From Sphingobacterium sp. CZ-UAM (GTDB lineage: Bacteria > Bacteroidota > Bacteroidia > Sphingobacteriales > Sphingobacteriaceae): 64,000 nucleotides of DNA. Under the pieces are notes generated by a model, which did not search any database, had not been told where the DNA came from, and saw only the letters and a program-made list of their open reading frames with translations. Shown here in pieces: positions 50,176 through 62,273 of the stretch. The translations under genes were made by a program, and so were the position numbers. Each line of letters begins with the position of its first letter. The first letter of the stretch is position 1. The DNA lies in assembly GCF_002000245.1 (NCBI RefSeq), contig NZ_MTCM01000002.1, forward strand, positions 620,001 to 684,000. Reading direction: 5' to 3'.

Positions 50176-51666
50176 TTGTTTAAAATTAGGAAGAAAGGGA
50201 TTCTATACTTTCTTTCACTGTCACTATGCGCTATTTTACCGGTGCTTGGCTGCCAGAAGAAATTCTCTTTGGATAATAAGGATAGAAAAGTGGCACAGGA
50301 AAATAAAAAGTGTATTTCCCCCCTCTCTATAGAGGGGATGAATGATAAAAAATTGAAAAAAATACATTTTAACAGATTAAAGGGAGATAAACAAAAATTA
50401 CTTATGTACCTGACCAAAAAGAGAAAGGCCAAGATTTACAAGGGCTTGATTAGCCTATTTTACCTGTCTATATTCATTATTCAGAATGAAGTCTTGGCAC
50501 TAGAGATTTCTATACCCCATACGGCGAGTCCTACATCGATTATGACTTTAGATCCGTACCTGGGACATGCTTCGGCAAAGATATGTACTGTTGCTTCCTA
50601 TCATACTCATGCAGCAGGCTTTGAGCCAACATGGAATAAGGACAGTGTCACGAAGGTCGCTAATGCAGTCTTTGACTGGCAGATAAAAAGCTATCAAAAA
50701 AATGAGCGTAGTTTGGACCAGGGCTGGGTAAGCGGTGTTTTATACAATGGCTTGTTTGATTGGGCAGAAAGTACAAACAGTAAATTTTATTTTGATTTTC
50801 TAAATAAAATCTTGGCCCGCTTTTATTGGCAGGTCGGTAATCGCATGTATCATGCAGATGATTTATGTGTGGCGCAAGTTTATCTCGATATGTATTTGAA
50901 GAAGGAAAAAAAAGAAATGATGACCCCAGCCAAGGCTAGGATTGATTGGATCATTGCCAATCCACCTTCCAATAATATCGATATCACGAAAGGGAAAAGT
51001 GAACGTTGGTGGTGGTGTGATGCGCTGTATATGGGGCCATCTGTATTTGCTAGGCTTGGGAAAATAACAGGTGAGACTAAGTATCTCACTTTTGCACATC
51101 ATGAATTCCTTGCCGCTTATCATCATTTGTATGATCGTGATGAACACTTGTTTTTCCGTGATGGTAGATATTTAAGGACGAAAGATGCTGATGGTACTAA
51201 AGTGTTTTGGAGCCGCGGAAATGGTTGGGTACTAGCAGGGCTTGTCGAGATGTTGAAGAACCTACCAGAACAGGATAAAAAATATCGTCCATTTTACGAG
51301 AAGTTATTTCTAGAAATGAGTGCAAAAATAGCAAGTCTTCAGCATAGAGATGGATATTGGCGGAGTAGCTTATTGAATAAAGATATCTACCCAATGCCCG
51401 AAACAAGTGGTACAAGTCTGTTTACTTATGCTTTGATGTATGGTATTAATCAGGGGATATTACCGGCCGATACATATTTACCTGTTGTACAAAGAGGCTG
51501 GAAAGCACTTGTCAATGCTGTTGACCCAACAGGCAGAGTTGGCTGGACACAACTTGTTGCTGAGAAGCCAGGAGTAGTTGAGAAGGAATCAACAAGAGGT
51601 TATTCTACTGGAGGTTTTTTGATGGTAGCAGCGGAATTGAATAAATATTTAGCCAACACAAATTGA
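50176..51666 (+). CDS. Glycoside hydrolase family 105 (unsaturated glucuronyl/rhamnogalacturonyl hydrolase type)
   Basis: 496 codons in one frame. The catalytic (alpha/alpha)6-barrel starts near residue 150: WNKDSVTKVANAVFDWQ, DQGWVSGVLYNGLFDW, MYHADDLCVAQVYLDMY, SERWWWCDALYMGPSVFARLG (catalytic Asp), FWSRGNGWVLAGLVEML, and the ETSGTSLFTYALMYG and RGYSTGGFLMVA ends. GH105/GH88 enzymes remove the 4,5-unsaturated uronic acid left by polysaccharide lyases on pectin, ulvan or similar glycans. The N-terminus is odd: a lipoprotein-like signal (LPVLGC at about residues 22-27) precedes a second hydrophobic signal (IYKGLISLFYLSIFII, about residues 87-102). The ATG at 50404 may be the native start. Confidence 0.88.
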   Translation: MFKIRKKGILYFLSLSLCAILPVLGCQKKFSLDNKDRKVAQENKKCISPLSIEGMNDKKLKKIHFNRLKGDKQKLLMYLTKKRKAKIYKGLISLFYLSIFIIQNEVLALEISIPHTASPTSIMTLDPYLGHASAKICTVASYHTHAAGFEPTWNKDSVTKVANAVFDWQIKSYQKNERSLDQGWVSGVLYNGLFDWAESTNSKFYFDFLNKILARFYWQVGNRMYHADDLCVAQVYLDMYLKKEKKEMMTPAKARIDWIIANPPSNNIDITKGKSERWWWCDALYMGPSVFARLGKITGETKYLTFAHHEFLAAYHHLYDRDEHLFFRDGRYLRTKDADGTKVFWSRGNGWVLAGLVEMLKNLPEQDKKYRPFYEKLFLEMSAKIASLQHRDGYWRSSLLNKDIYPMPETSGTSLFTYALMYGINQGILPADTYLPVVQRGWKALVNAVDPTGRVGWTQLVAEKPGVVEKESTRGYSTGGFLMVAAELNKYLANTN

Positions 51667-52323: not shown

Positions 52324-53568
52324 CTAGTCATCAGCACTTAGAAGTCCGCTTTCCCATTTAACAGCACGGTTGAACTCGTCCAATACATATACCTTGTAAC
52401 CTTGGCCACCTTCAAATACACGAAGAATAACGTGTCCACGAAATGACTGATATCCCTTCTGGAACCATGGACCATAAGTAACCAAAGTTTCATCATGCAT
52501 ATTGGTTGAAAATAGCAATCTATCTTTTCGCTTCCCCAAATTCCGCAGCCTATAGTAAACCTCTTGTCCGGGCTGGTCTGAACTATAGACTTGTTGAATG
52601 GCAATTTTTGGATCCAGCGTCGCTATAAGGTTTGCGTTGTTGGCATCGCGATTTCCATGATGATCCAATACCATCGCATCGACTCGTCCGACAGCTTTGG
52701 CAATAGAAGTTTCTACATCAAACCAAGACGGTACTGAGCCGTCGTGCAAACCGGTATTGTCAGCACCAGCATAGTAGTCAAACTTGCCATAACGAAACTT
52801 TAAGGCCATACTCAAAGGATTTTCATTATATCCCCCTTTGTAAAAGTCGAGCATATCTTTAGGCGAAAAAAGTTCTGTCCTTTCATTGCTTTGTGGATTC
52901 CATACCTGCGCATTATTTTTGATATTCAGAATATGTACCATTGGAAAAGCGTTAGGATCTTTTGTCAATACGATCTGATCTTGACGTCCAACTTGCAAAG
53001 ATTGAATGGTATACAAACGACTATCAACCAATTGGAGATATTGCTGAAATAACTTATCATCCTTCAATTTAACTCTTAGATCCAAAGGAAAGTCGTAATT
53101 TGGATAATTACGGTCAATGATAGTTTTAACATCCAGTCTCGGCAGCAGATCCATTACGGCACCATAATGGTCACTATGGAAATGACTGATAATAGCATAA
53201 TCCAGCACGAGCGGACCTCGTTGACTCTCAGTGGCCCACCCTATATAATCAATCAGCGCATCCTGAATGGAACGAGTCGATGCGTAACGGGAATCGATGG
53301 CTTTCAATGGCGCATTATTTTTCTCAAAACCCTTTTTATCCACTGTTCCAGCATCCAATAAGATACGCGTCCCATCAGGCATCATCATAAAGGTGCAATT
53401 TCCCTCTCCTGTATTAATGTGATGTATATCCATGTACCCTTTTTTCCAAAACGGAAATTTCTGTTGCGCTGAAGGTTCATGCTTGACTGGGGATAGCTGT
53501 GCCAACAGTAATGGAACTTCTAATGCGAACAATAACACTAACATTCCTAGTCTTCTAATCATCTTCAT
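52324..53568 (-). CDS. Secreted metallo-beta-lactamase-fold hydrolase (ComEC/Rec2 C-terminal-like)
   Basis: 414 residues with a signal peptide ending LLLAQ. The metal motif SHFHSDHYGA (HxHxDH) follows the opening strand motif HHINTGEGNCTFMMMPDGTRILLDAG; later ligands appear in AGADNTG and LDHHGNRDANN. The fold resembles the competence ComEC C-terminal hydrolase family, which acts on phosphodiesters, but here the protein stands alone and is exported. Its start overlaps the end of the glycerophosphodiesterase gene by 14 bases, so the two are translationally coupled and should act on related substrates. Last gene of the operon. Confidence 0.85.
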   Translation of the reverse strand: MKMIRRLGMLVLLFALEVPLLLAQLSPVKHEPSAQQKFPFWKKGYMDIHHINTGEGNCTFMMMPDGTRILLDAGTVDKKGFEKNNAPLKAIDSRYASTRSIQDALIDYIGWATESQRGPLVLDYAIISHFHSDHYGAVMDLLPRLDVKTIIDRNYPNYDFPLDLRVKLKDDKLFQQYLQLVDSRLYTIQSLQVGRQDQIVLTKDPNAFPMVHILNIKNNAQVWNPQSNERTELFSPKDMLDFYKGGYNENPLSMALKFRYGKFDYYAGADNTGLHDGSVPSWFDVETSIAKAVGRVDAMVLDHHGNRDANNANLIATLDPKIAIQQVYSSDQPGQEVYYRLRNLGKRKDRLLFSTNMHDETLVTYGPWFQKGYQSFRGHVILRVFEGGQGYKVYVLDEFNRAVKWESGLLSADD

Positions 53569-54475
53569 GGGTTTTGCTCTTTAAATAATTTATCAAAAGC
53601 GCTGGACGGTCGGTTTGGATCATGTTTACATGATTCTCCAGAAACCAATCATAAATGGATGGGTCAGCTACAGCTCTTTCGTCATCATGCCCAGCATTCT
53701 GCTTGGCCCAGAGTGAATTAACCCAGATATTGATCCCCTGTTGCCGTAATTCTTGAAATCTTTTCAATACGTCCTCCTGGCCCTTGTTGATCGAGAATTC
53801 TACCGCGATGGGTTTATAATTTCGAAGATGGTTATCCAATAAAACCATCGCATTGGAACTGTTCATATTAATAATTGGCATGAAACTTACCTCTTCAAAG
53901 CCTTCACCCAGTTTTTCTTTGATTTCCTCATACGATTTATTGGCTTTAAGTACGATCTGATCCAGCGTCCCTGTAGATTTAGCTATCGCATAACAGATAG
54001 GAAACAGCTCAAAGCCCTTGTCAATATTAACAAGAATGTGCCCTTTGCAGGTTAACAATGCTTCTTCTAAGGTTGGGATACGATGTGAAGTGGCTATACC
54101 GAGTCCGTCTTTGAGAAATAGGTTCTTTAGACTATCCAACGTCCAGTCTCCAACCCTTCCCTTTCCGGTAGTTGTACGGTCAATAGTGGAGTCGTGCATT
54201 AATACCGCTTTTCCGTCTTTGGTCAGTTGTACATCGATCTCGACCATATCCACCCCCATTGAAATACAGTTTTTGATTGCCTGAACGGAGTTTTCGGGCG
54301 CATTGCGCCAATCGCCGCGATGCGCGATGACCCAAACTTTTTCGCGGGGTGAATCCCGCAGTTGCGCTGTTGTCCGCTCGATGTTCGTTGGGCTGGCAGC
54401 CCTCTCCTGTGCTGATATCTGCTGTACAAAAAGTAGCAGCAGATAGAAATAACATAGCCTGATAGTTATCTTTAT
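53555..54475 (-). CDS. Glycerophosphodiester phosphodiesterase family protein, no ordinary start codon
   Basis: Hydrolyses glycerophosphodiesters to glycerol-3-phosphate and an alcohol. Visible motifs are VIAHRGDWRNAPENS, DMVEIDVQLTKDGKAVLMHD and the C-terminal NHVNMIQTDRPALLINYL. The first ATG in frame (54259) lies after the catalytic AHRG motif, so it cannot be the real start. The frame is open back to a TAG at about 54497, and the segment KITIRLCYFYLLLLFVQQ is a signal peptide whose expected first codon is ATA (54475-54473), with AAGG about ten bases upstream. Either an ATA start is used or the ATG has mutated and the gene is poorly expressed. It follows susD by 25 bases and overlaps the next gene by 14. 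Confidence 0.85.
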   Translation of the reverse strand: MKITIRLCYFYLLLLFVQQISAQERAASPTNIERTTAQLRDSPREKVWVIAHRGDWRNAPENSVQAIKNCISMGVDMVEIDVQLTKDGKAVLMHDSTIDRTTTGKGRVGDWTLDSLKNLFLKDGLGIATSHRIPTLEEALLTCKGHILVNIDKGFELFPICYAIAKSTGTLDQIVLKANKSYEEIKEKLGEGFEEVSFMPIINMNSSNAMVLLDNHLRNYKPIAVEFSINKGQEDVLKRFQELRQQGINIWVNSLWAKQNAGHDDERAVADPSIYDWFLENHVNMIQTDRPALLINYLKSKTHEDD

Positions 54476-54500
54476 GGATTTAAAAGCCTTAATTTTCTAA

Positions 54501-55898
54501 TTATTTAGTATAACCTGGATTTTGTACGATACGTTGATCAGTCGCGGTCTGGCTTGCAGGAATAGGAAGCAACAACTTATTGTTGTCTGTCAATCCCAAA
54601 AGCAGCGCAGCACGTCCCCGACGGATAATATCAAACCAGCGGTGGCCTTCAAAAACGAGTTCTTTGCGACGCTGCATATCAATTTCCTCAAAAATAGCTT
54701 GTTTTGTCAAAGCTCCTCCATAAGGGCCTATACCTGCGCGCTTCCGGATTTGATCAAGGTATTTCAAGGCCGATGTGGTACTGCCCAATTCATTTTCAAT
54801 CTCAGCTAGCATCAGCAATACGTCCGCATAACGCAAGACAACAAAATCACTGCCGGCATCTTCAACGACAGTCACTGGAACTGCGATTTTATTGCTATAG
54901 GCCAAACCTGAAGCTAACCTTTTGACATAGCTTCCTTTACGTTTGTCCTGATCTGTAAATAGACCATAGAACTTGCTACTCAGCACACCATGACCTTTGG
55001 TGCCAGTCATCTTTCCTTCCACGCGTCCGGTTGGATTAAACATCCGATAAGCGTCTGTCCCTTCGCTGTTGGAATTAACACCTGAAGCGAACTGAACAGC
55101 AAAAATAATCTCCTTATTTAATTCATTGGCCACTGGAAAGACCTGTGTGATATCATCAAGCAACCCTTGCCCTGAGGCAGGACTAATCACTTCATCCAAA
55201 AAGGTTTTGGCATTTTGGAAATTACCTAAGGTTAGCTCGACTTTCCCCATTAAGGTTTGCGCAGCCGATTTTGTCGCGCGGCCTTTATTGGACTCTGTAC
55301 GTGTCGGCAGCGAAACAATAGCCTCTTTAAGATCTGTTTTGATCTGGTCGTAAACCTTTGCCTTTTCTGTACGGCCCTGACCAAATAGTTCCTGTGGATC
55401 TTTAATCTCATCAACCACAAGTGGCACATCCCCGAAACAGCGTACCAAATTAAAATAAAGCAGGGCGCGGATAAACTTCATTTCACCGATCCTATTTGAT
55501 TTCAATTCTTCTTTGTTGAACGAAATCTCCTTAATTCTGTTGAGTACAATATTTGCATTCTGGATAGCCATATAGTGATCTCTCCAAACGGCCTCAATGA
55601 GGCCGCTTTGTGGTATATTGGTAAAGTTGTCCAACATGCCATACTCGCCATTATCATTGGCAGGAGTTTCATCATAAGCGTCCTCACCGGGGATTTCACC
55701 GATGGCGAGCATGCCCAAGTTATAGATTCCTTTAAACTGTAAAGAACCATAGGTCGCATTTATCGCTTCTTCGATTTCTTTTTCATTTCGGTAAAACCGT
55801 TGCGCAACCTTCTCTGTTTCAGGATAGATCTTAAGTTCCTTTGTACAGCTCAGCATAGTGGCCGAACCAATCAAAAATATGTAGATTATTTTTTTCAT
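54501..55898 (-). CDS. SusD/RagB-family surface lipoprotein
   Basis: About 465 residues from the ATG at 55898 (MKKIIYIFLIGSATMLSC lipoprotein signal, with GGAG nine bases upstream); an ATG at 55940 would extend it. Domains: SusD N-terminal part (NEKEIEEAINATYGSLQFKG; EMKFIRALLYFNLVRCFGDVPLV) and RagB C-terminal part (FVVLRYADVLLMLAEIENELG; LDQIRKRAGI; QRRKELVFEGHRWFDIIRRGRA). Partner of the SusC encoded upstream. The operon context (GDPD and a metallo-hydrolase downstream) suggests it binds a phosphodiester-containing ligand. Confidence 0.95.
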   Translation of the reverse strand: MKKIIYIFLIGSATMLSCTKELKIYPETEKVAQRFYRNEKEIEEAINATYGSLQFKGIYNLGMLAIGEIPGEDAYDETPANDNGEYGMLDNFTNIPQSGLIEAVWRDHYMAIQNANIVLNRIKEISFNKEELKSNRIGEMKFIRALLYFNLVRCFGDVPLVVDEIKDPQELFGQGRTEKAKVYDQIKTDLKEAIVSLPTRTESNKGRATKSAAQTLMGKVELTLGNFQNAKTFLDEVISPASGQGLLDDITQVFPVANELNKEIIFAVQFASGVNSNSEGTDAYRMFNPTGRVEGKMTGTKGHGVLSSKFYGLFTDQDKRKGSYVKRLASGLAYSNKIAVPVTVVEDAGSDFVVLRYADVLLMLAEIENELGSTTSALKYLDQIRKRAGIGPYGGALTKQAIFEEIDMQRRKELVFEGHRWFDIIRRGRAALLLGLTDNNKLLLPIPASQTATDQRIVQNPGYTK

Positions 55899-55970
55899 CT
55901 CAATAAACTCCGTTCGTATAATTAATTTCTCTATTGACATTTCGTCTAAACGATGTTGTCATGGTTATCT

Positions 55971-58900
55971 TTAATAAGTTGCTTTGAGTCCAAAAGTTAT
56001 TGTCCTCGCAATTGGATAGTTTCCTCCTGTATTGTATCCTGACGTCAGGATATTTCCCATGGTGGTACCATCGGGATTCCAGCCCCTAAACTTGGTTTTT
56101 GTAAATAAATTTGTACCAGAAACATAAAGCTGCAGATCACTTAATTTTATCTTTTTCAACAAGCTTGAATCAAAGGTATAGGCGAGGCGCACATTTCGTA
56201 ACCGAAAGTAGTCGCCATTATTGCGTTGCACAACAACAGAACTGCGCACCAGCTTTCGGCTATTGGAAAAGTTACCAAAATTGGGCTGCCCCAGAAACCC
56301 TCCAGGATTGTTTTCGGGATGATATCTGTTTTCAAAATAGTACTGCGAGGGAACAGCGAAGCCTTCGCCGGATTCAGTCAGTGAAGACATATCACCGTCC
56401 AGCAATGTCCGTCCATAAATGCCGGCGAAATCAAAACTAAAGTTAAACCGCTTATACGTGATATCTGAGCCAAAACCATAAGTCCATTTTGGTGCATATG
56501 AACCTTTTGAGGTTTTATCCTCTTCATTGATCTTGCCGTCGTTGTTGACATCGATGACGCGGTAATCGCCTGTCAGCGTTCCATCGAGATGTGGCGAATT
56601 ATCTATCTCTGCCTGCGTTTTATACACCCCCTCAACGGTATAGGCGTAGATCTCCGCAATAGAACCACCTACTTTAGTTACGAAATTTTGATCAACACCA
56701 GTGGCTACCTTGGTTTGCCCCGGCCCTAAGGCCAACACTTTGTTGCTATTACGCGTGGCATTAGCATTAAAACCAATAGCGACCTTACCAATCATAAAAT
56801 TATTACCGGATAATTGTGCTTCAAAACCTTTATTCTCCATTTCACCAACATTTGCCAGCGCTTCACTATAACCTGATTGAGCCGGGACGGGTACTTTGAG
56901 CAATAATCCTTTGGTATTGGTTTTGTAATATGCTAGTGAGAGATTTAACCTATTTTTTAAAAATCCTAGATCTAAGCCTATATTTTGTGCATTGGCAATT
57001 TCCCAACCAAGGTTAGGATTCGAAGATGTACTCGTAATATACCCCGGTGCGACCGTTGATCCATTGAGATAATCATAGTTGTATTTGGTATAGTCATTCA
57101 AATTGGTAACCAGCGCGTAAGAACTATAGTTGCCAATTTGGTTATTTCCCGTCTTTCCCCAACTTAAAGCCAATTTGGCAAAATTTAGGAAGTCATTTTC
57201 AGGAAAGAAATTCTCTTTGCTCATAACCCATCCCACCGATGCTGATGGGAAGTTTCCCCATCGATTGTTTTCACCAAACCGGGAGGAACCATCACGGCGT
57301 AGCGCTAAAGAGACAAGATACTTCGCATCATAATCATATTGAATACGGGAAAGAAAGGATTCTAATGTCCACATATCAATCTTAGGAACTGATCTTGTTG
57401 TACTCGCTCCTGCAATGTTCTGGATATTGTCATCAGCATACCCTGTCCCCGTAATTTTATTTAAATTGATCCGTTCTTTCTGAAAAGTATGACCTATTAA
57501 CACATTAAATGAGTGCTTTTGAATCCGGAAGTCATAATTCAAGGTATTCTCTACGAGATAATTATAAGTTGATATCCGAGTTTGTGTTCCATCTGCGTCT
57601 GGTCTTGGCGCAGGAATCCGGTATGCCCCTACACTTAAAGGGTAATAGAAATCCGCTAAATAGGAATCGTAATCACCACCTAGGCTAAAACGGTATTTAA
57701 GCCCTTTAATAATCTCATAATTGAGAAAGATATTACCAAATGTTTTAAACCGCTGGTTAAGGTTTTTGACCAATGTTGATGTCGCTAGCAAATTTTCTAC
57801 AGGAGTACCGTTAATTGCAACCCCTTCAAGAATACGCTGTTCTTGTACCAGTTGGTCACTGATATTCAAACTACCATCAGTCTTATAAGGGCTATAAAAT
57901 GGGAAAGACAGTGGTATTAATCCCAGGGCGCCGTCACTTCTGCTCGATTGATCTCGTGCATTTTGGTGAGTATAACTCGGTTTGAGATGGATCCCGAAAT
58001 CAAGTTTACTTGATATTTTGGTTTCCAAATTAACGGCAGCAGAATAGCGCTGCATATCAGACCCAATGACGACTCCTTTTTGGTTAAAATACCCGAGTGA
58101 GGTGTAGAACTTTGACTGTGATCCGCCGCCGCTGATATTAACATTGTAATTGGACATTGGTGCTGTTCGAAACGCTAAATCCATCCAATCTGTATTTGTT
58201 AAACCTTGCTGACCGTCAAGATAAGGTCTTAGATAATCCAGGGAAAGCTCTCTCCCATCAATGTTCTTGCCATTGATTTTTTTCGTAACACGTACCGAAT
58301 TTGGATCAGAAGCACTTCGATTCATTGGATCTTTGGATACATAACCCCAATCTCGAGCTTCAGACAGGAATTGAGCCAACTGATAACCGTCCACAAGTTT
58401 TACGCCTGATGTCTGCTGCTGGAAACCGTAATAGGCATCAAAGCCTACTTTGGTCTTTTCGGCCCCCATCTTTCCCTCCTTGGTCGTCACCAGGATAACA
58501 CCATTGGCAGCGCGTGAACCGTAAATTGCTGCGGATGCAGCATCTTTTAGAATATTGATACTTGCTATATCCGAAGGATTGATCGAGTTTAATGTATTTC
58601 CTTCGGATAGCGGGAAACCATCAACTACAATCAAAGGACTCGCCCCAGCAGTCAATGTGCCTCGTCCCCGAATGACAATTTGAGCGCTCGCTCCCGGTTG
58701 GCCATCAGCCTGATTAATCACAACACCAGAAACCTTCCCTGCCAATTGTTGCTCAAAACTGGCCGCTGCAGTCTTTTCTAGGCTTTTGGCGTCAATCTTA
58801 CTGACAGCACCTACGATTTTTGCCCGAGATTGCTCGCCATACCCAATCACCACGATTTCATCCAACAATCTATTTTTGGTATTTAATTTAATGTCAAGCT

Positions 58901-59441
58901 GATCTTGGCCCTCTATTGTGGTACGGAAGGTATCATAGCCCACATGAGAAACCATCAAAACTTTTTCTGGCACATTGGGCACAGCTAGTCGATAACTCCC
59001 ATCTGCTTGAGACAATGTTTTAACGCTGCTATTCAGAAATTCTATCGTAACACCGCTAACTGGTTTGTTGTCTTGATCACGGATAACACCAGCAAGAACC
59101 TGTTGTTGTTTAGCTGTCTTCATCAAACGTTTGACCGTAACAACCTTATCCTTAACAAAGAAATCCAGCGGAAAATTCCTTTTGAGGAAATCTATGGATT
59201 CGTTCATCGTCTTGAACTGAAGGGCTGTTTCCTCCACATAAAGCCCCTGCAGGTCACTTTCTACATAGTACACTTGGTATCCAAACTGCTTCCCCAGGTT
59301 GTTGATCGCGGAGCGTAAGGACAGTGATTTTAACTTGGCCTGCTGACCAAGAGTGTAAGGGGCCGCATCTGTCGATTCAGGAAATGCGGACCAAAACAAT
59401 GAAAAAAGTATAGCAGAGGCTATAAAACTGTTTTTTTTCAT
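55971..59441 (-). CDS. SusC/RagA-family TonB-linked transporter with STN signalling domain
   Basis: 1156 residues with signal peptide (SAILFSLFWSAFPESTDA). STN domain at about residues 35-105 (LKSLSLRSAINNLGKQFGYQ), CarboxypepD_reg-like domain (LAGVIRDQDNKPVSGVTIEF), the LLDEIVVIGYGEQSRAKIVG motif, plug (SAQIVIRGRGTLTAGASPLIVVDGFPL-type segment; ASAAIYGSRAANGVILVTTK) and barrel. The STN domain links it to the FecR encoded 78 bases upstream on the minus strand. Full length, with no visible lesion. Confidence 0.95.
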   Translation of the reverse strand: MKKNSFIASAILFSLFWSAFPESTDAAPYTLGQQAKLKSLSLRSAINNLGKQFGYQVYYVESDLQGLYVEETALQFKTMNESIDFLKRNFPLDFFVKDKVVTVKRLMKTAKQQQVLAGVIRDQDNKPVSGVTIEFLNSSVKTLSQADGSYRLAVPNVPEKVLMVSHVGYDTFRTTIEGQDQLDIKLNTKNRLLDEIVVIGYGEQSRAKIVGAVSKIDAKSLEKTAAASFEQQLAGKVSGVVINQADGQPGASAQIVIRGRGTLTAGASPLIVVDGFPLSEGNTLNSINPSDIASINILKDAASAAIYGSRAANGVILVTTKEGKMGAEKTKVGFDAYYGFQQQTSGVKLVDGYQLAQFLSEARDWGYVSKDPMNRSASDPNSVRVTKKINGKNIDGRELSLDYLRPYLDGQQGLTNTDWMDLAFRTAPMSNYNVNISGGGSQSKFYTSLGYFNQKGVVIGSDMQRYSAAVNLETKISSKLDFGIHLKPSYTHQNARDQSSRSDGALGLIPLSFPFYSPYKTDGSLNISDQLVQEQRILEGVAINGTPVENLLATSTLVKNLNQRFKTFGNIFLNYEIIKGLKYRFSLGGDYDSYLADFYYPLSVGAYRIPAPRPDADGTQTRISTYNYLVENTLNYDFRIQKHSFNVLIGHTFQKERINLNKITGTGYADDNIQNIAGASTTRSVPKIDMWTLESFLSRIQYDYDAKYLVSLALRRDGSSRFGENNRWGNFPSASVGWVMSKENFFPENDFLNFAKLALSWGKTGNNQIGNYSSYALVTNLNDYTKYNYDYLNGSTVAPGYITSTSSNPNLGWEIANAQNIGLDLGFLKNRLNLSLAYYKTNTKGLLLKVPVPAQSGYSEALANVGEMENKGFEAQLSGNNFMIGKVAIGFNANATRNSNKVLALGPGQTKVATGVDQNFVTKVGGSIAEIYAYTVEGVYKTQAEIDNSPHLDGTLTGDYRVIDVNNDGKINEEDKTSKGSYAPKWTYGFGSDITYKRFNFSFDFAGIYGRTLLDGDMSSLTESGEGFAVPSQYYFENRYHPENNPGGFLGQPNFGNFSNSRKLVRSSVVVQRNNGDYFRLRNVRLAYTFDSSLLKKIKLSDLQLYVSGTNLFTKTKFRGWNPDGTTMGNILTSGYNTGGNYPIARTITFGLKATY

Positions 59442-59519
59442 AAATTTGAAATGATTTGAAAATTGATTCTAATTGTTTGAATTGATTTATTCACCGGTAA
59501 TGGCTGTTACCGGTGTTTT

Positions 59520-60335
59520 TTATTTTAAGCTATATTGTTGTTCATTAATTCGGATCGGTTTTAGGTTTAGTGGGAAAGATATAATCTGTAGGATATCCTC
59601 AAAATTACCACTGAAAGCACCACTAACAACTTTGTCCTTTAGGCTATCTGGATAAGCTATTTTCATCTGGTAAGATTCTTCCAGTTGTTGTAACACGATA
59701 GCTAGCTCAGTGTGGTCAAACTTAAAAGTTCTCTTAGCGGATGGTAGCATATAATGCTTTTGTGTCGATCCCGCTTTAAAGCACCAGGCCTCTTCGGGCA
59801 TTAAATAGGTTATATTCCCATCTTTATTGATCTTAACTTTTCCCTCAAATAGTTGTACCCGATGGTCGATATCCGTTTGAATGAGGTCAAACTTTGTACC
59901 CAGCACCTCAACATCAAAATCCATTGCATCAATCTGAAAAGGTTTATTTTTGTCCTTAGCGATATCAAAATATCCCTTCCCTCTGAAAGCTACTTTTCGT
60001 AAACTACTCCCAAATTCGGTAGATATAGTCAGCTCACTAAAGGGTTCCATGATGATATGGCTACCATCTTTAAGGTATACAGTATCACGATTGTTCATTG
60101 TCACAAAAGTGTAGTGTTCTGCTACATTTTTGGGCTGGAATATAAACCACGCTCCTAACAGCAATACGGGAAGAATAAGTAGCATACTTTTCCTCTTTTT
60201 TCTTTTAGCCCGTTCCTTTTTCTGGATACGTTGATCAATGTTTTCCCATAAGGATTCAGACGTCTCCTGTTTCACGGAGGGGTCCTCAGAAATTGCATCC
60301 CAGATTTCTTTCGGATCTTTTTTTCCTTTCGCCAT
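59520..60335 (-). CDS. FecR-family anti-sigma factor (short form)
   Basis: 271 residues. A basic juxtamembrane stretch (QRIQKKERAKRKKRKS) precedes one membrane helix (MLLILPVLLLGAWFIF, about residues 50-65). The FecR domain shows VYLKDGSHIIMEPFSELTIS and VAFRGKGYFDIAKDKNKPFQI; a C-terminal STN-like segment (ELAIVLQQLEESYQMKIAYP) ends the protein. Shorter than the FecR of the other locus because the cytosolic N-terminal part is compact. Regulates the sigma factor encoded 71 bases upstream. Confidence 0.93.
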   Translation of the reverse strand: MAKGKKDPKEIWDAISEDPSVKQETSESLWENIDQRIQKKERAKRKKRKSMLLILPVLLLGAWFIFQPKNVAEHYTFVTMNNRDTVYLKDGSHIIMEPFSELTISTEFGSSLRKVAFRGKGYFDIAKDKNKPFQIDAMDFDVEVLGTKFDLIQTDIDHRVQLFEGKVKINKDGNITYLMPEEAWCFKAGSTQKHYMLPSAKRTFKFDHTELAIVLQQLEESYQMKIAYPDSLKDKVVSGAFSGNFEDILQIISFPLNLKPIRINEQQYSLK

Positions 60336-60406
60336 ATCGTATAGATGGTATCTATAAATTATTACGTCTATACCCCTATATCGTACACCCCCTATTTGGA
60401 AAAAAA

Positions 60407-60889
60407 TTAAAAATTAGCGCGAAGAAAAGCCATGGCTTTGTTGATCTGCTTAGCAACGGCTGTTTTGGATATTTTGAATTTATGAGCAATCTCACTGTAA
60501 CTTAACTCATCCACAACACTATCAAGTACCATTATTTTTCGACGTTCTGGCAAAGCTGACAATAATAAATTCAGTTTGTCTACTTTAATCTGATAGGCAG
60601 ATTCGTCAAACCTCTCTTCGATTTCTGTTAACTCATAAGCGCTATCAAGGGAAGTAAATTGAACCTTTTGTTTTCTATAAAAATTGGCAATTTCCTGTTT
60701 GGAGGTTTTAAAAATTATTGCTTCTGGATTGGATACCCCATATAGCTTATGAACATAACGCCACAGGTGAATAAAAACTTCCTGTACTACATCTGCAGCA
60801 TCATCCTGGGATTCAATATAGTATTGAACGAATAAAAATACTTTCTTATGGTATCTATTAAATAGGTCTTTGAAGTACTCCTTCTTCAT
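60407..60889 (-). CDS. ECF-type RNA polymerase sigma factor (SusCD-linked)
   Basis: 160 residues. Region 2 contains DLFNRYHKKVFLFVQYYIES and DAADVVQEVFIHLWRYV; region 4 contains LPERRKIMVLDSVVDELSYSEIAHKFKISKTAVAKQINKAMAFLR. It heads the second sigma-FecR-SusC-SusD cluster and is predicted to activate it when substrate reaches SusC. A good TAnnTTTG-type promoter lies 87 bases upstream. Confidence 0.93.
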   Translation of the reverse strand: MKKEYFKDLFNRYHKKVFLFVQYYIESQDDAADVVQEVFIHLWRYVHKLYGVSNPEAIIFKTSKQEIANFYRKQKVQFTSLDSAYELTEIEERFDESAYQIKVDKLNLLLSALPERRKIMVLDSVVDELSYSEIAHKFKISKTAVAKQINKAMAFLRANF

Positions 60890-61240: not shown

Positions 61241-62273
61241 ACGTGAGTTCGGTTTAAGCAGCAAGGAATAATTGATTTACTTGTTGTTCAAACTGAATAT
61301 TTAATGATGGTTTTTTAGGAAAAAACGCATATGTTGCAAACGCTCCTAAAATATTCAATAAAAAGTTGTTCACTGACCGATCTCTAGTATGCTGTATCTT
61401 GCATATATTTTTTAGTTCGTCGTTCTCAGATTCTATTATGACTCTTTTTCTGAGCATAATTTTATCGGTCTGACTTAGGTTCATGCCTTTCATATTTTTC
61501 CGGGGCTTTGTTAACATCTGTATTCCATTTCCCCAAAGGATGTCTGCCATTGCTTTTGAGATATAGCCTTTATCTCCATAGAGTTTTCCAAAAATATCCT
61601 TTGTCATATCCATCATATGCCGCAGGTTCCTGTCATCAACATTACCTTTGGTGAGATAAAATGAAAGTATTTCCCTTTATCGTTGATAATCAGGTGTAGT
61701 TTGAAACCATAAAACCAACCAATGGAACACTGGCCTCTTTCGGCGGTATCCTTAAAGACCCTGTGCTGGTGAATCCCCTTGTATGACAAACTTTGAGTGG
61801 GTAGAATCGATGAAATTAATTCCTTCGCTCTTGCCCAAACAACACATTTTAACAAATAGCATGAATAGCACCGCACATCGAGGCTGTAATTCCACAAAGC
61901 GGTTATACGATGGCAGCCCCGGAAACAAGTCTGTCAGATGTGGCAATGCATAATACGTATAGAAGGACTTTAGATTATTAAACTGACCAGCGTGGAACAG
62001 GATCATCAAACTCATAAGCTCGCTTTCACAAAGACCAGCCTTACGATTTCGCTTACCTAATTTTCTGTCTTCGATTAGCTTTTCCTCCATAACTGGCTGA
62101 ATTTCTTTGCAAAATATCAACTTTTACAAATATTTCTATAGCTTTATCTCTAAGCATAAGGCTTGATTTTATATTGTATTAATCTTATTTACAACTAATT
62201 ATATACAAAAATCAAACCTTTTTTATTTTTTAAAACACTCTGTTTTAACGTTTTCCTTATCCCGAACTCACGT
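61241..62273 (-). mobile_element. IS982-family insertion sequence, inactivated
   Basis: About 1.03 kb, bounded by perfect 12-bp inverted repeats ACGTGAGTTCGG (61241-61252) and CCGAACTCACGT (62262-62273), which extend to 14 bp if the flanking TA on each side is included. The single transposase gene is broken by two frameshifts. No unambiguous target duplication is visible. Confidence 0.85.
61254..62120 (-). pseudogene. IS982-type transposase with two frameshifts
   Basis: The coding sequence runs 62120 to 61254 across frames. Part 1 (from 62120) has LPSYNRFVELQPR and the first catalytic Asp region GINFIDSTHSKFVIQG. A +1 shift at a GGGG run near 61781 leads to part 2, which begins IHQHRVFKDTAERGQ, continues through WFYGFKLHLIINDKG and ends after HFIS. 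A -1 shift near 61640 leads to part 3: KGNVDDRNLRHMMDM, FGKLYGDKGYISKAM (second Asp), MLRKRVIIESENDELKN (Glu) and QHTRDRSVNNFLLN. All three catalytic segments survive, so the loss is recent or caused by simple indels. Confidence 0.88.

Follow-up and report, generated by a model that had tools for sequence, protein, structure and literature searches.

On the minus strand of the window, the 64,000-nucleotide stretch of DNA from Sphingobacterium sp. CZ-UAM that was analysed here, lies an operon of six genes encoding an ECF sigma factor, a FecR-type anti-sigma factor, a SusC-type transporter, a SusD-type lipoprotein, a glycerophosphodiester phosphodiesterase (GDPD) and a hydrolase with the metallo-beta-lactamase (MBL) fold. 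Profile searches confirmed these families. The ECF sigma factor (160 aa, 60407-60889) matched Sigma70_r2 (E 6e-10) and Sigma70_r4_2 (E 6e-9) as well as TIGR02985 (E 3e-28, under the cut-off of that model), and the FecR-type protein (271 aa, 59520-60335) matched FecR (E 6e-13) and FecR_C (E 8e-8). The SusC/RagA-type TonB-dependent transporter (1156 aa, 55971-59441) has an N-terminal extension, matched TIGR04056 with 809.8 bits and contains Plug and CarbopepD_reg_2. It adjoins the SusD-type lipoprotein (479 aa, 54501-55940; SusD_RagB, E 7e-32; SusD-like_3, E 8e-23), as in other SusCD loci. No carbohydrate-active enzyme was found among the six operon products, none of which matched a glycosidase family in the profile searches. 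A GH88 gene (50176-51666) is convergent with the operon and lies past its terminator.

The gene order, strand and ends given in an earlier note on this DNA agree with the ORF coordinates and the family profiles. Its gaps of 25-80 bases correspond to 71, 78, 30 and 25 bases, the last of which requires that the GDPD gene start at 54475, and the GDPD and MBL genes do overlap by 14 bases in the ORF coordinates. The promoter and terminator that it had proposed were also located. Ahead of the sigma gene, on the minus strand, lies a probable promoter, TTTG-17-TAATTTTG (61004-60976), which we take to fit the Bacteroidota consensus. It is identical in S. detergens (locus L006), from which the 218 bases directly 5' of the sigma start show one difference. 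A hairpin resembling an intrinsic terminator lies 3' of the MBL gene (52276-52247, minus strand) and is conserved in S. detergens. An inverted repeat between the FecR and SusC genes (59492-59515), also conserved there, was rejected as an operon terminator because its T-run is on the plus strand only.

The sigma and FecR genes of a sigma/FecR/STN-TonB signalling system are both present. The transporter had been described as an STN-SusC; however, the Pfam scan found no STN domain in the SusC of the window or in those of L006, L045 and L064, whereas the orthologues at L068, L070 and L052 have STN above the cut-off and those at L044, L067 and L076 under it. The nearest solved relatives of the SusD protein are deposited only as SusD homologues with the ligand unstated, so that a glycan ligand is possible. 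The literature search found no publication matching codes 9SJE and 9SJJ; among the papers listed, code 9SM2 leads to one on phage adsorption, and two on SusD mention 6GCZ.

The predicted secreted GDPD (53555-54475) matched the GDPD profile (E 1e-26) over its N-terminal part only, the C-terminal part being DUF4996 (PF16387, E 1e-29). The match to 3i10 (E 8e-70) covers residues 51-308 of 313. The HRG, E-N, E-D and H positions, which we take to be catalytic, are kept (H52 R53 G54, E61 N62, E79 D81, H94) and are invariant in ten aligned GDPD sequences. In these respects the protein resembles GlpQ and other GDPDs, whereas it differs in its DUF4996 subtype and in its tie to a SusCD operon. Wheat-straw secretomes have been reported to contain Sphingobacterium-type glycerophosphodiester phosphodiesterases, which are listed there under GH16 (PMC4666044) and for which no tie to the GDPD gene of the window could be made.

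In the GDPD frame there is no ATG, GTG or TTG 5' of the HRG motif. A start at 54259, the first in the ORF listing, was rejected because this motif would be lost; the profile match starts at 54322. The homologous start codon is ATA here (54475-54473) but ATG in all four Sphingobacterium relatives, S. detergens and three others, so GDPD may be poorly produced in CZ-UAM. It is possible that the ATA is a sequencing error. In comparison with S. detergens, dN/dS was highest for GDPD among the six genes (0.245, against 0.148 for MBL and 0.039 for SusC); in this set the S. detergens sigma and FecR slices start 5' of the start codons, and start codons read from both are meaningless. The ATA start together with the highest dN/dS suggests that the proposed phosphodiester system may be weakened in the window genome.

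The MBL-fold hydrolase (414 aa, 52324-53568) is secreted, carries the motif HFHSDH and is a probable phosphodiesterase. It matched PF00753 (E 2e-8) and, in profile searches, Pce (E 6e-13) and ComEC (E 9e-9). Its structure model (pLDDT 91.9) consists of one N-terminal helix and then one MBL domain. The leading fold matches were the ComEC nuclease domain (Z 28.1, 258 residues), Pce (Z 23.2) and RNase J (Z about 17), three families that cleave phosphoesters; further down the list come other MBL-fold enzymes, among them the lactamase PNGM-1 and an arylsulfatase. Among proteins with solved structures, Pce (CbpE), the teichoic acid phosphorylcholine esterase of Streptococcus pneumoniae, is closest in sequence, and it shares the MBL fold and the HxHxDH motif. 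In contrast to Pce, to which it is about 17% identical, the window protein is secreted, has a single MBL domain in the model, lies within a SusCD operon and contains no choline-binding repeats in the Pfam scan. The C-terminal nuclease domain of ComEC, its best structural match, has a general phosphodiesterase activity (PMC8579336). Unlike ComEC, the window protein is not fused to a membrane channel and has His in place of Asp in motif II. The earlier description of this protein as ComEC-like is therefore right for the fold and wrong for the metal motif, which is of the Pce type, and a nuclease-only role is disfavoured by this motif.

The full six-gene order was also found in four other Sphingobacterium genomes (L006, L044, L045, L046). 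In five genomes of another genus of the same family (L064, L070, L074, L075, L076), the MBL and GDPD genes are present in swapped order beside the same SusCD, with 46-47% identity in SusC and 48-49% in SusD. These came from whole-genome searches; a contig search with MBL peptide patterns, which were too specific, had returned only the S. detergens locus. The neighbourhood is thus kept across genomes; its loss in relatives, which the earlier note had named as telling against its reading, did not occur, and the conservation places the arrangement beyond chance.

GDPD was present in 15 of the 17 members of the SusD clade, and the other two (L067, L068) have a PF01663 phosphodiesterase and MBL. 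The trees were built by a quick method; the SusD tree leaves out frames no longer than 400 aa, SusD-like proteins unmatched by the window SusD and the second SusD of L076, and its background includes three added window ORFs, among them 33468, whose branch is very long and whose identity as a SusD is doubtful. L081, L082, L086 and L087 belong to the same SusCD clade and have GDPD but no MBL. A search with SusD only, in 390 genomes of the class, found five SusD genes in at least four other genomes; since it scored no more than four candidates in each genome, it may have overlooked members of the clade. Four of these genes (in G486, G862 and G186) lie within sigma-FecR-SusCD-GDPD operons from which MBL is absent, and the fifth (G253, at 36-38%) lies in no such operon and falls outside the clade. 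From these partner counts, GDPD is a near-constant partner of the SusCD clade and MBL a variable accessory. The co-occurrence that the earlier note had proposed to look for thus exists between the clade and GDPD; its idea of GDPD and MBL as the defining pair is contradicted by the loci with only one of the two, and the MBL family occurs in other SusCD operons too.

GDPDs with PF16387 were found in 6 of 296 genomes of the phylum, and five of the six, including that of the window, adjoin SusCD. In ten of the MBL-bearing genomes, picked after their neighbourhoods had been seen, GDPD lies within 8 kb of 1 and within 12 kb of 5 of 150 listed SusC genes, which are the highest-scoring of 35 scored per genome and not a random sample. 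This background counts GDPD only, and the list leaves out the SusC genes of the MBL loci and that of L085, an MBL-free SusCD-GDPD operon in G650, itself one of the ten, so that at least one such operon escaped the count. By hand count, the ten genomes contain 11 MBL loci, 6 of which have GDPD (Fisher p 1.4e-7 against the SusC background, with rows that are not independent).

Of the 37 loci of the MBL family itself, 33 lie close to SusC/TonB receptors, and at least 26 contain a recognised phosphoesterase in the directon, the folds of these enzymes being unrelated. The latter count is a lower bound, since the Pfam scan covered 29 of the 82 distinct neighbour groups and the rest carry no label; some of the labels come from BLAST clustering. 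At some of the 11 loci without a recognised phosphoesterase, the neighbours have no evident link to phosphorus, among them an FGGY sugar kinase and a xylose-isomerase-like protein (AP_endonuc_2). GDPD is present at 14 of the 37 loci; on the MBL tree, from which the pseudogene L048 had been dropped, this partnership must have changed no fewer than six times. The GDPDs of L058 and L066 gave short matches of 40% identity or less to the other GDPDs compared. With the SusCD clade accompanied by GDPD and the MBL family by phosphoesterases, the phosphodiester reading of the earlier note holds up by comparative genomics.

The PUSI and PUSII loci of Flavobacterium johnsoniae are low-Pi-induced SusCD loci with sigma or FecR regulators and phosphodiesterases, and are described as distinct from loci bearing CAZy enzymes (PMC8115612). 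Like the present operon, they combine SusCD with periplasmic phosphodiesterases or a phosphatase, with an ECF sigma factor in PUSI and a FecR-like regulator in PUSII; PusD has been reported as polyphyletic, and the PhoA of PUSII carries an extra pf13653 domain (PMC8115612). The enzymes are not the same: PUSI has PI-PLC together with a metallophosphoesterase, and PUSII has PhoA, against GDPD-DUF4996 and MBL here, whose activities are predicted. The pf13653 domain is presumably of the GDPD type. We call the operon PUS-like by its gene content. The idea of SusCD systems dedicated to organic phosphorus is not new (PMC8115612). The present enzyme combination beside SusCD looks new, although related phosphate-scavenging sets are known; no description of a GDPD-MBL-SusCD operon was found among the titles and abstract openings listed, whose coverage is short on subscription papers and preprints.

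It is quite probable, judging from gene content and neighbourhoods, that the operon encodes an outer-membrane phosphodiester-acquisition system, a PUS-like variant of SusCD. The ECF sigma/FecR pair would probably turn the operon on once substrate engages SusC. SusD and SusC would then capture and take up a molecule that contains glycerophosphodiester and is too big to pass through porins, from which the periplasmic GDPD, with its signal peptide, family assignment and intact catalytic residues, would free glycerol-3-phosphate. The MBL protein, as a Pce/ComEC-like metal phosphodiesterase, may make a complementary cut, for example by trimming phospho-substituents or cutting the chain internally. 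In other lineages this third place is taken by a PF01663 phosphodiesterase or left empty. As to uptake of the freed glycerol-3-phosphate, the glpT model matched the genome under its cut-off only.

Two kinds of substrate are the likeliest, and they are indistinguishable here: head groups or oligomers derived from phospholipids, and polymers of glycerol-phosphate. Scavenging of head groups and phosphoinositides (glycerophosphocholine, glycerophosphoethanolamine, glycerophosphoinositol, lysophospholipids) is a tentative possibility. L083 has the order SusCD-GDPD-SusCD-PI-PLC-alkaline phosphatase, and PUSI of F. johnsoniae has PI-PLC (PMC8115612). At L059 a HAD hydrolase occurs together with a DAO oxidoreductase, while L061 combines an aminotransferase and a purple acid phosphatase with two enzymes of the PF01663 type, one of them assigned by clustering. 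This gene set presumably resembles one for phosphonate catabolism. However, porins should admit free head-group diesters, so that SusCD would be needed for larger forms only, and the six operon genes include none for choline, ethanolamine or inositol catabolism. A narrowing to teichoic acid, with SusCD importing poly(glycerol-phosphate) fragments of Gram-positive walls, is rather unlikely. SusCD is suited to oligomers more than to small head groups, and Pce, the nearest solved relative of MBL, acts on teichoic acid. On wall teichoic acid GlpQ acts exolytically, and lipoteichoic acid must be pre-cleaved for it (PMC7086022). In this reading MBL would act endolytically or strip phospho-substituents like Pce, and GDPD would free glycerol-3-phosphate exolytically like GlpQ. 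GDPD operons without MBL nevertheless occur. Many natural teichoic acids are substituted, yet no enzyme that removes sugar or alanine is encoded by the six genes. That the locus is dedicated to poly(glycerol-phosphate) teichoic acids or similar polymers, with secreted Pce/ComEC-like metallohydrolases of a new family and an exolytic GDPD acting after SusCD import, is distinctly unlikely.

Scavenging of nucleic acids with MBL as a ComEC-like nuclease is very unlikely. The fold match to the ComEC nuclease domain would suit it, as would L060, where the same MBL family occurs with adenosine deaminase, a nucleoside phosphorylase and a nucleoside symporter, but the window operon has GDPD and no nucleoside gene, and its MBL lacks the Asp of ComEC motif II. 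SusCD loci are mostly for glycans, and a more distant SusD relative (L088, 36%) has no GDPD in its locus, where the remaining genes seem by inspection to be for sugar metabolism. It is nonetheless highly improbable that the operon is simply a glycan locus in which two enzymes happen to lie, given the recurrence of GDPD with this SusCD clade, its rarity near the other listed SusC genes and the lack of glycosidases among the products.

In conclusion, a soil-type bacterium appears to possess, as far as gene families tell, a set of genes that senses, imports and cuts phosphate-linked molecules through a transporter type associated with sugars. As SusCD is usually annotated as a glycan importer, a clade tied to GDPD would let annotators spot loci for uptake of organic phosphorus, and the Pce/ComEC-like metallohydrolase family, repeatedly beside phosphoesterases near SusC/TonB receptors, would likewise serve as a marker. 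The outcome is a brief, testable set of candidate substrates and enzymes. If the teichoic-polymer reading were true, a Gram-negative bacterium would be feeding on wall polymers of Gram-positive bacteria, and the MBL family would generally serve SusCD loci of Bacteroidota as a module for cutting phosphodiesters that has so far gone unrecognised. With the PUS-like reading, PUS systems would extend past Flavobacterium.

The operon on the minus strand of the window consists of genes for an ECF sigma factor (60407-60889), FecR (59520-60335), SusC (55971-59441), SusD (54501-55940), a glycerophosphodiester phosphodiesterase with a C-terminal DUF4996 domain (GDPD; frame end at 53555) and a metallo-beta-lactamase-fold hydrolase (MBL; 52324-53568), as given by the ORF list and family searches. 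The earlier note had read this order from the sequence, and the searches confirmed the families of all six products, together with gaps of 71, 78, 30 and 25 bases from the sigma gene to the GDPD gene and a 14-base overlap between the GDPD and MBL genes. The terminator it had proposed corresponds to a terminator-like hairpin after the MBL gene (52276-52247, minus strand), which is conserved in Sphingobacterium detergens. However, the STN domain it had assigned to SusC was not found by Pfam; Pfam STN is also absent from SusC of the related loci L006 (S. detergens), L045 and L064, is above the cut-off in L068, L070 and L052, and is below it in L044, L067 and L076. In the 218 bases immediately before the sigma start, the window and S. 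detergens differ by one mismatch. Farther upstream, about 250 bases from this start, the similarity is lost, and a frame-broken transposase remnant, whose 3' piece is DDE_Tnp_1_3, lies upstream at 61254-62120. The FecR-SusC gap contains a perfect 10-bp inverted repeat (59492-59515) with an antisense T-run, conserved in S. detergens. Convergent with the operon is a GH88-family gene (50176-51666) with a TTG start and an unusual N-terminal extension.

The GDPD start at 54259 in the ORF list was rejected because it would exclude the HRG motif, and because the profile begins earlier, at 54322. Ahead of the HRG motif, no ATG, GTG or TTG was found in the GDPD frame, which is open up to 54496. The codon at 54475-54473 is ATA, whereas the homologous codon is ATG in S. 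detergens, and ATG also opens the GDPDs of three other Sphingobacterium (four of the four relatives compared). Since ATA stands where relatives have ATG, GDPD may be poorly translated in the window genome, unless the ATA base reflects a sequencing error. Purifying selection acts on the rest of the frame, but less strongly than on the other five genes (dN/dS against S. detergens: GDPD 0.245, MBL 0.148, sigma 0.088, SusD 0.079, FecR 0.070, SusC 0.039). With an ATA start, GDPD would be a weakened or non-canonically started gene in an otherwise intact operon.

GDPD is the near-constant partner of the SusCD clade. One clade of 17 rows in the SusD tree (SH-aLRT 96) has GDPD in 15 rows and MBL within the operon in 12, MBL being absent from the operon in five. 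GDPD is missing from L067 (SusC 39%, SusD 36% identical to the window) and L068 (45% and 46%), where related SusCD and MBL occur with a PF01663 phosphodiesterase replacing GDPD; L067 additionally has an Exo_endo_phos protein. Because most rows were recruited via MBL or PF16387 (DUF4996) searches, those found by SusD only are the cleanest evidence. In this enzyme-independent search of 390 class genomes with the window SusD, scoring the best four candidates at most per genome, matches beyond the window were found in genomes G486, G862 (two SusD) and G186, all in sigma-FecR-SusCD-GDPD operons without MBL; G253 also matched (36-38%), in a different kind of locus without GDPD.

PF16387 was matched in six of 296 phylum genomes, and its GDPD adjoins SusCD in five of the six, the window counted and L080 being the exception. 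L081 is ordered sigma-FecR-SusC-SusD-GDPD-PF01663, without MBL (its SusC and SusD share 63% and 62% identity with those of the window), and L082 is sigma-FecR-SusC-SusD-GDPD and nothing else. A further sigma-FecR-SusC-SusD operon, L085 (6182-15295), carries two GDPD genes but lacks MBL; its genome has the MBL-GDPD operon L070 as well. L083 (1335-14263) reads SusC-SusD-GDPD-SusC-SusD-PI-PLC-C1-alkaline phosphatase; it resembles a locus for scavenging phosphoinositides or phospholipids and is close to PUSI, a phosphate utilisation locus of Flavobacterium. As background, GDPD lies within 8 kb of one of 150 SusC genes among the matches listed in ten genomes, and within 12 kb of five, whereas it is present at six of 11 MBL loci in the same genomes; the Fisher p of 1.4e-7 is descriptive only, because the rows are related, the genomes were hand-chosen and the listed SusC genes omit L085.

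MBL is present in 15 of 93 genus genomes (including the window genome and one pseudogene) and, by profile search, in 28 of 400 order genomes. In an evenly drawn phylum sample it was found in 14 of 395 by single-sequence search (E 1e-3) and in nine by profile at E 1e-20, two of these being weak partial matches. The complete six-gene order is shared with L006, L044, L045 and L046, and five genomes of another genus (L064, L070, L074, L075, L076) have the same SusCD (SusC 46-47%, SusD 48-49%) but the order SusD-MBL-GDPD.

Of the 37 MBL loci (L006, L044-L078 and that of the window), 33 have a receptor of the SusC or TonB type nearby on the same strand by BLAST or clustering, the exceptions being L048 (pseudogene), L063, L072 (cut by the region edge) and L078. 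At least 26 have a recognised phosphoesterase in the same directon (GDPD in 14, PF01663 in eight, metallophosphoesterase in four), some labels coming from BLAST clustering rather than the member's own Pfam hit; none was recognised at L048, L049, L051, L055, L056, L057, L060, L063, L072, L073 and L078. L056 has an FGGY kinase. L060 (3708-14351), an apparent nucleic-acid locus, has sigma-FecR-TonB receptor-MBL and, after these, genes for adenosine deaminase, nucleoside phosphorylase and a nucleoside symporter. L048 (3993-4710), from another Sphingobacterium, contains degenerate fragments with 80-88% identity to the window MBL, a decayed copy beside which no SusCD or GDPD was recognised. The MBL/SusCD loci L051, L054 and L062 have a sodium:solute symporter, DUF6772, DUF6385, an FAD oxidoreductase and, read by eye, polyol dehydrogenase and sugar kinase genes; their substrate is possibly a polyol-phosphate polymer. 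The distribution of GDPD on the MBL tree requires at least six changes, and so does that of recognised phosphoesterases of any kind. In L054/L062, L058 and L066 the GDPDs are clearly unlike the window type, which suggests that GDPD was recruited separately there.

The AlphaFold model of MBL, built with 37 sequences, has a mean pLDDT of 91.9. Among solved structures it comes nearest to the ComEC nuclease domain (Z 28.1, 258 residues) and the teichoic acid phosphorylcholine esterase Pce (Z 23.2), then to RNase J (Z about 17), and lower-ranked matches take in other MBL-fold enzymes. In profile search, Pce was top (E 6e-13), then ComEC (9e-9). Motif II is HFHSDH and thus of the Pce type, since it keeps the His at the position where ComEC carries Asp (PMC8579336); the relatives L050, L054 and L062 have HFDPDH instead. 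Over residues 51-308 of the 313 read, GDPD aligns with 3i10 at E 8e-70, and an alignment of ten GDPDs shows no variation at the HRG, E-N, E-D and H positions.

The PusCD loci of Flavobacterium are induced by phosphate depletion, as described by Lidbury et al. (PMC8115612); PUSI contains an ECF sigma factor, PI-PLC and a metallophosphoesterase, and PUSII a FecR-like protein and PhoA to which a pf13653 domain is added. The window operon is alike in architecture, but its enzymes differ from those described there. In a literature search of partial coverage, mostly titles and abstract openings, no description of the GDPD-DUF4996 SusCD clade or of a link between the MBL family and SusCD was found. 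The PusCD-like architecture was already known; what looks new here is the enzyme combination.

GlpQ can act exolytically on wall teichoic acid, but lipoteichoic acid must be pre-cleaved before GlpQ digests it (PMC7086022). An endo-plus-exo enzyme pair acting on glycerol-phosphate polymers is therefore attractive but unproven. Read by eye, the signal peptides of GDPD and MBL are plain and lack a lipobox, which fits periplasmic action. The simplest reading is that sigma/FecR control would respond to the substrate and SusCD would import a phosphodiester-containing molecule, as their families suggest, and that GDPD plus MBL, or the substitutes of MBL, would then cleave it in the periplasm, as suggested by families, residues and fold.
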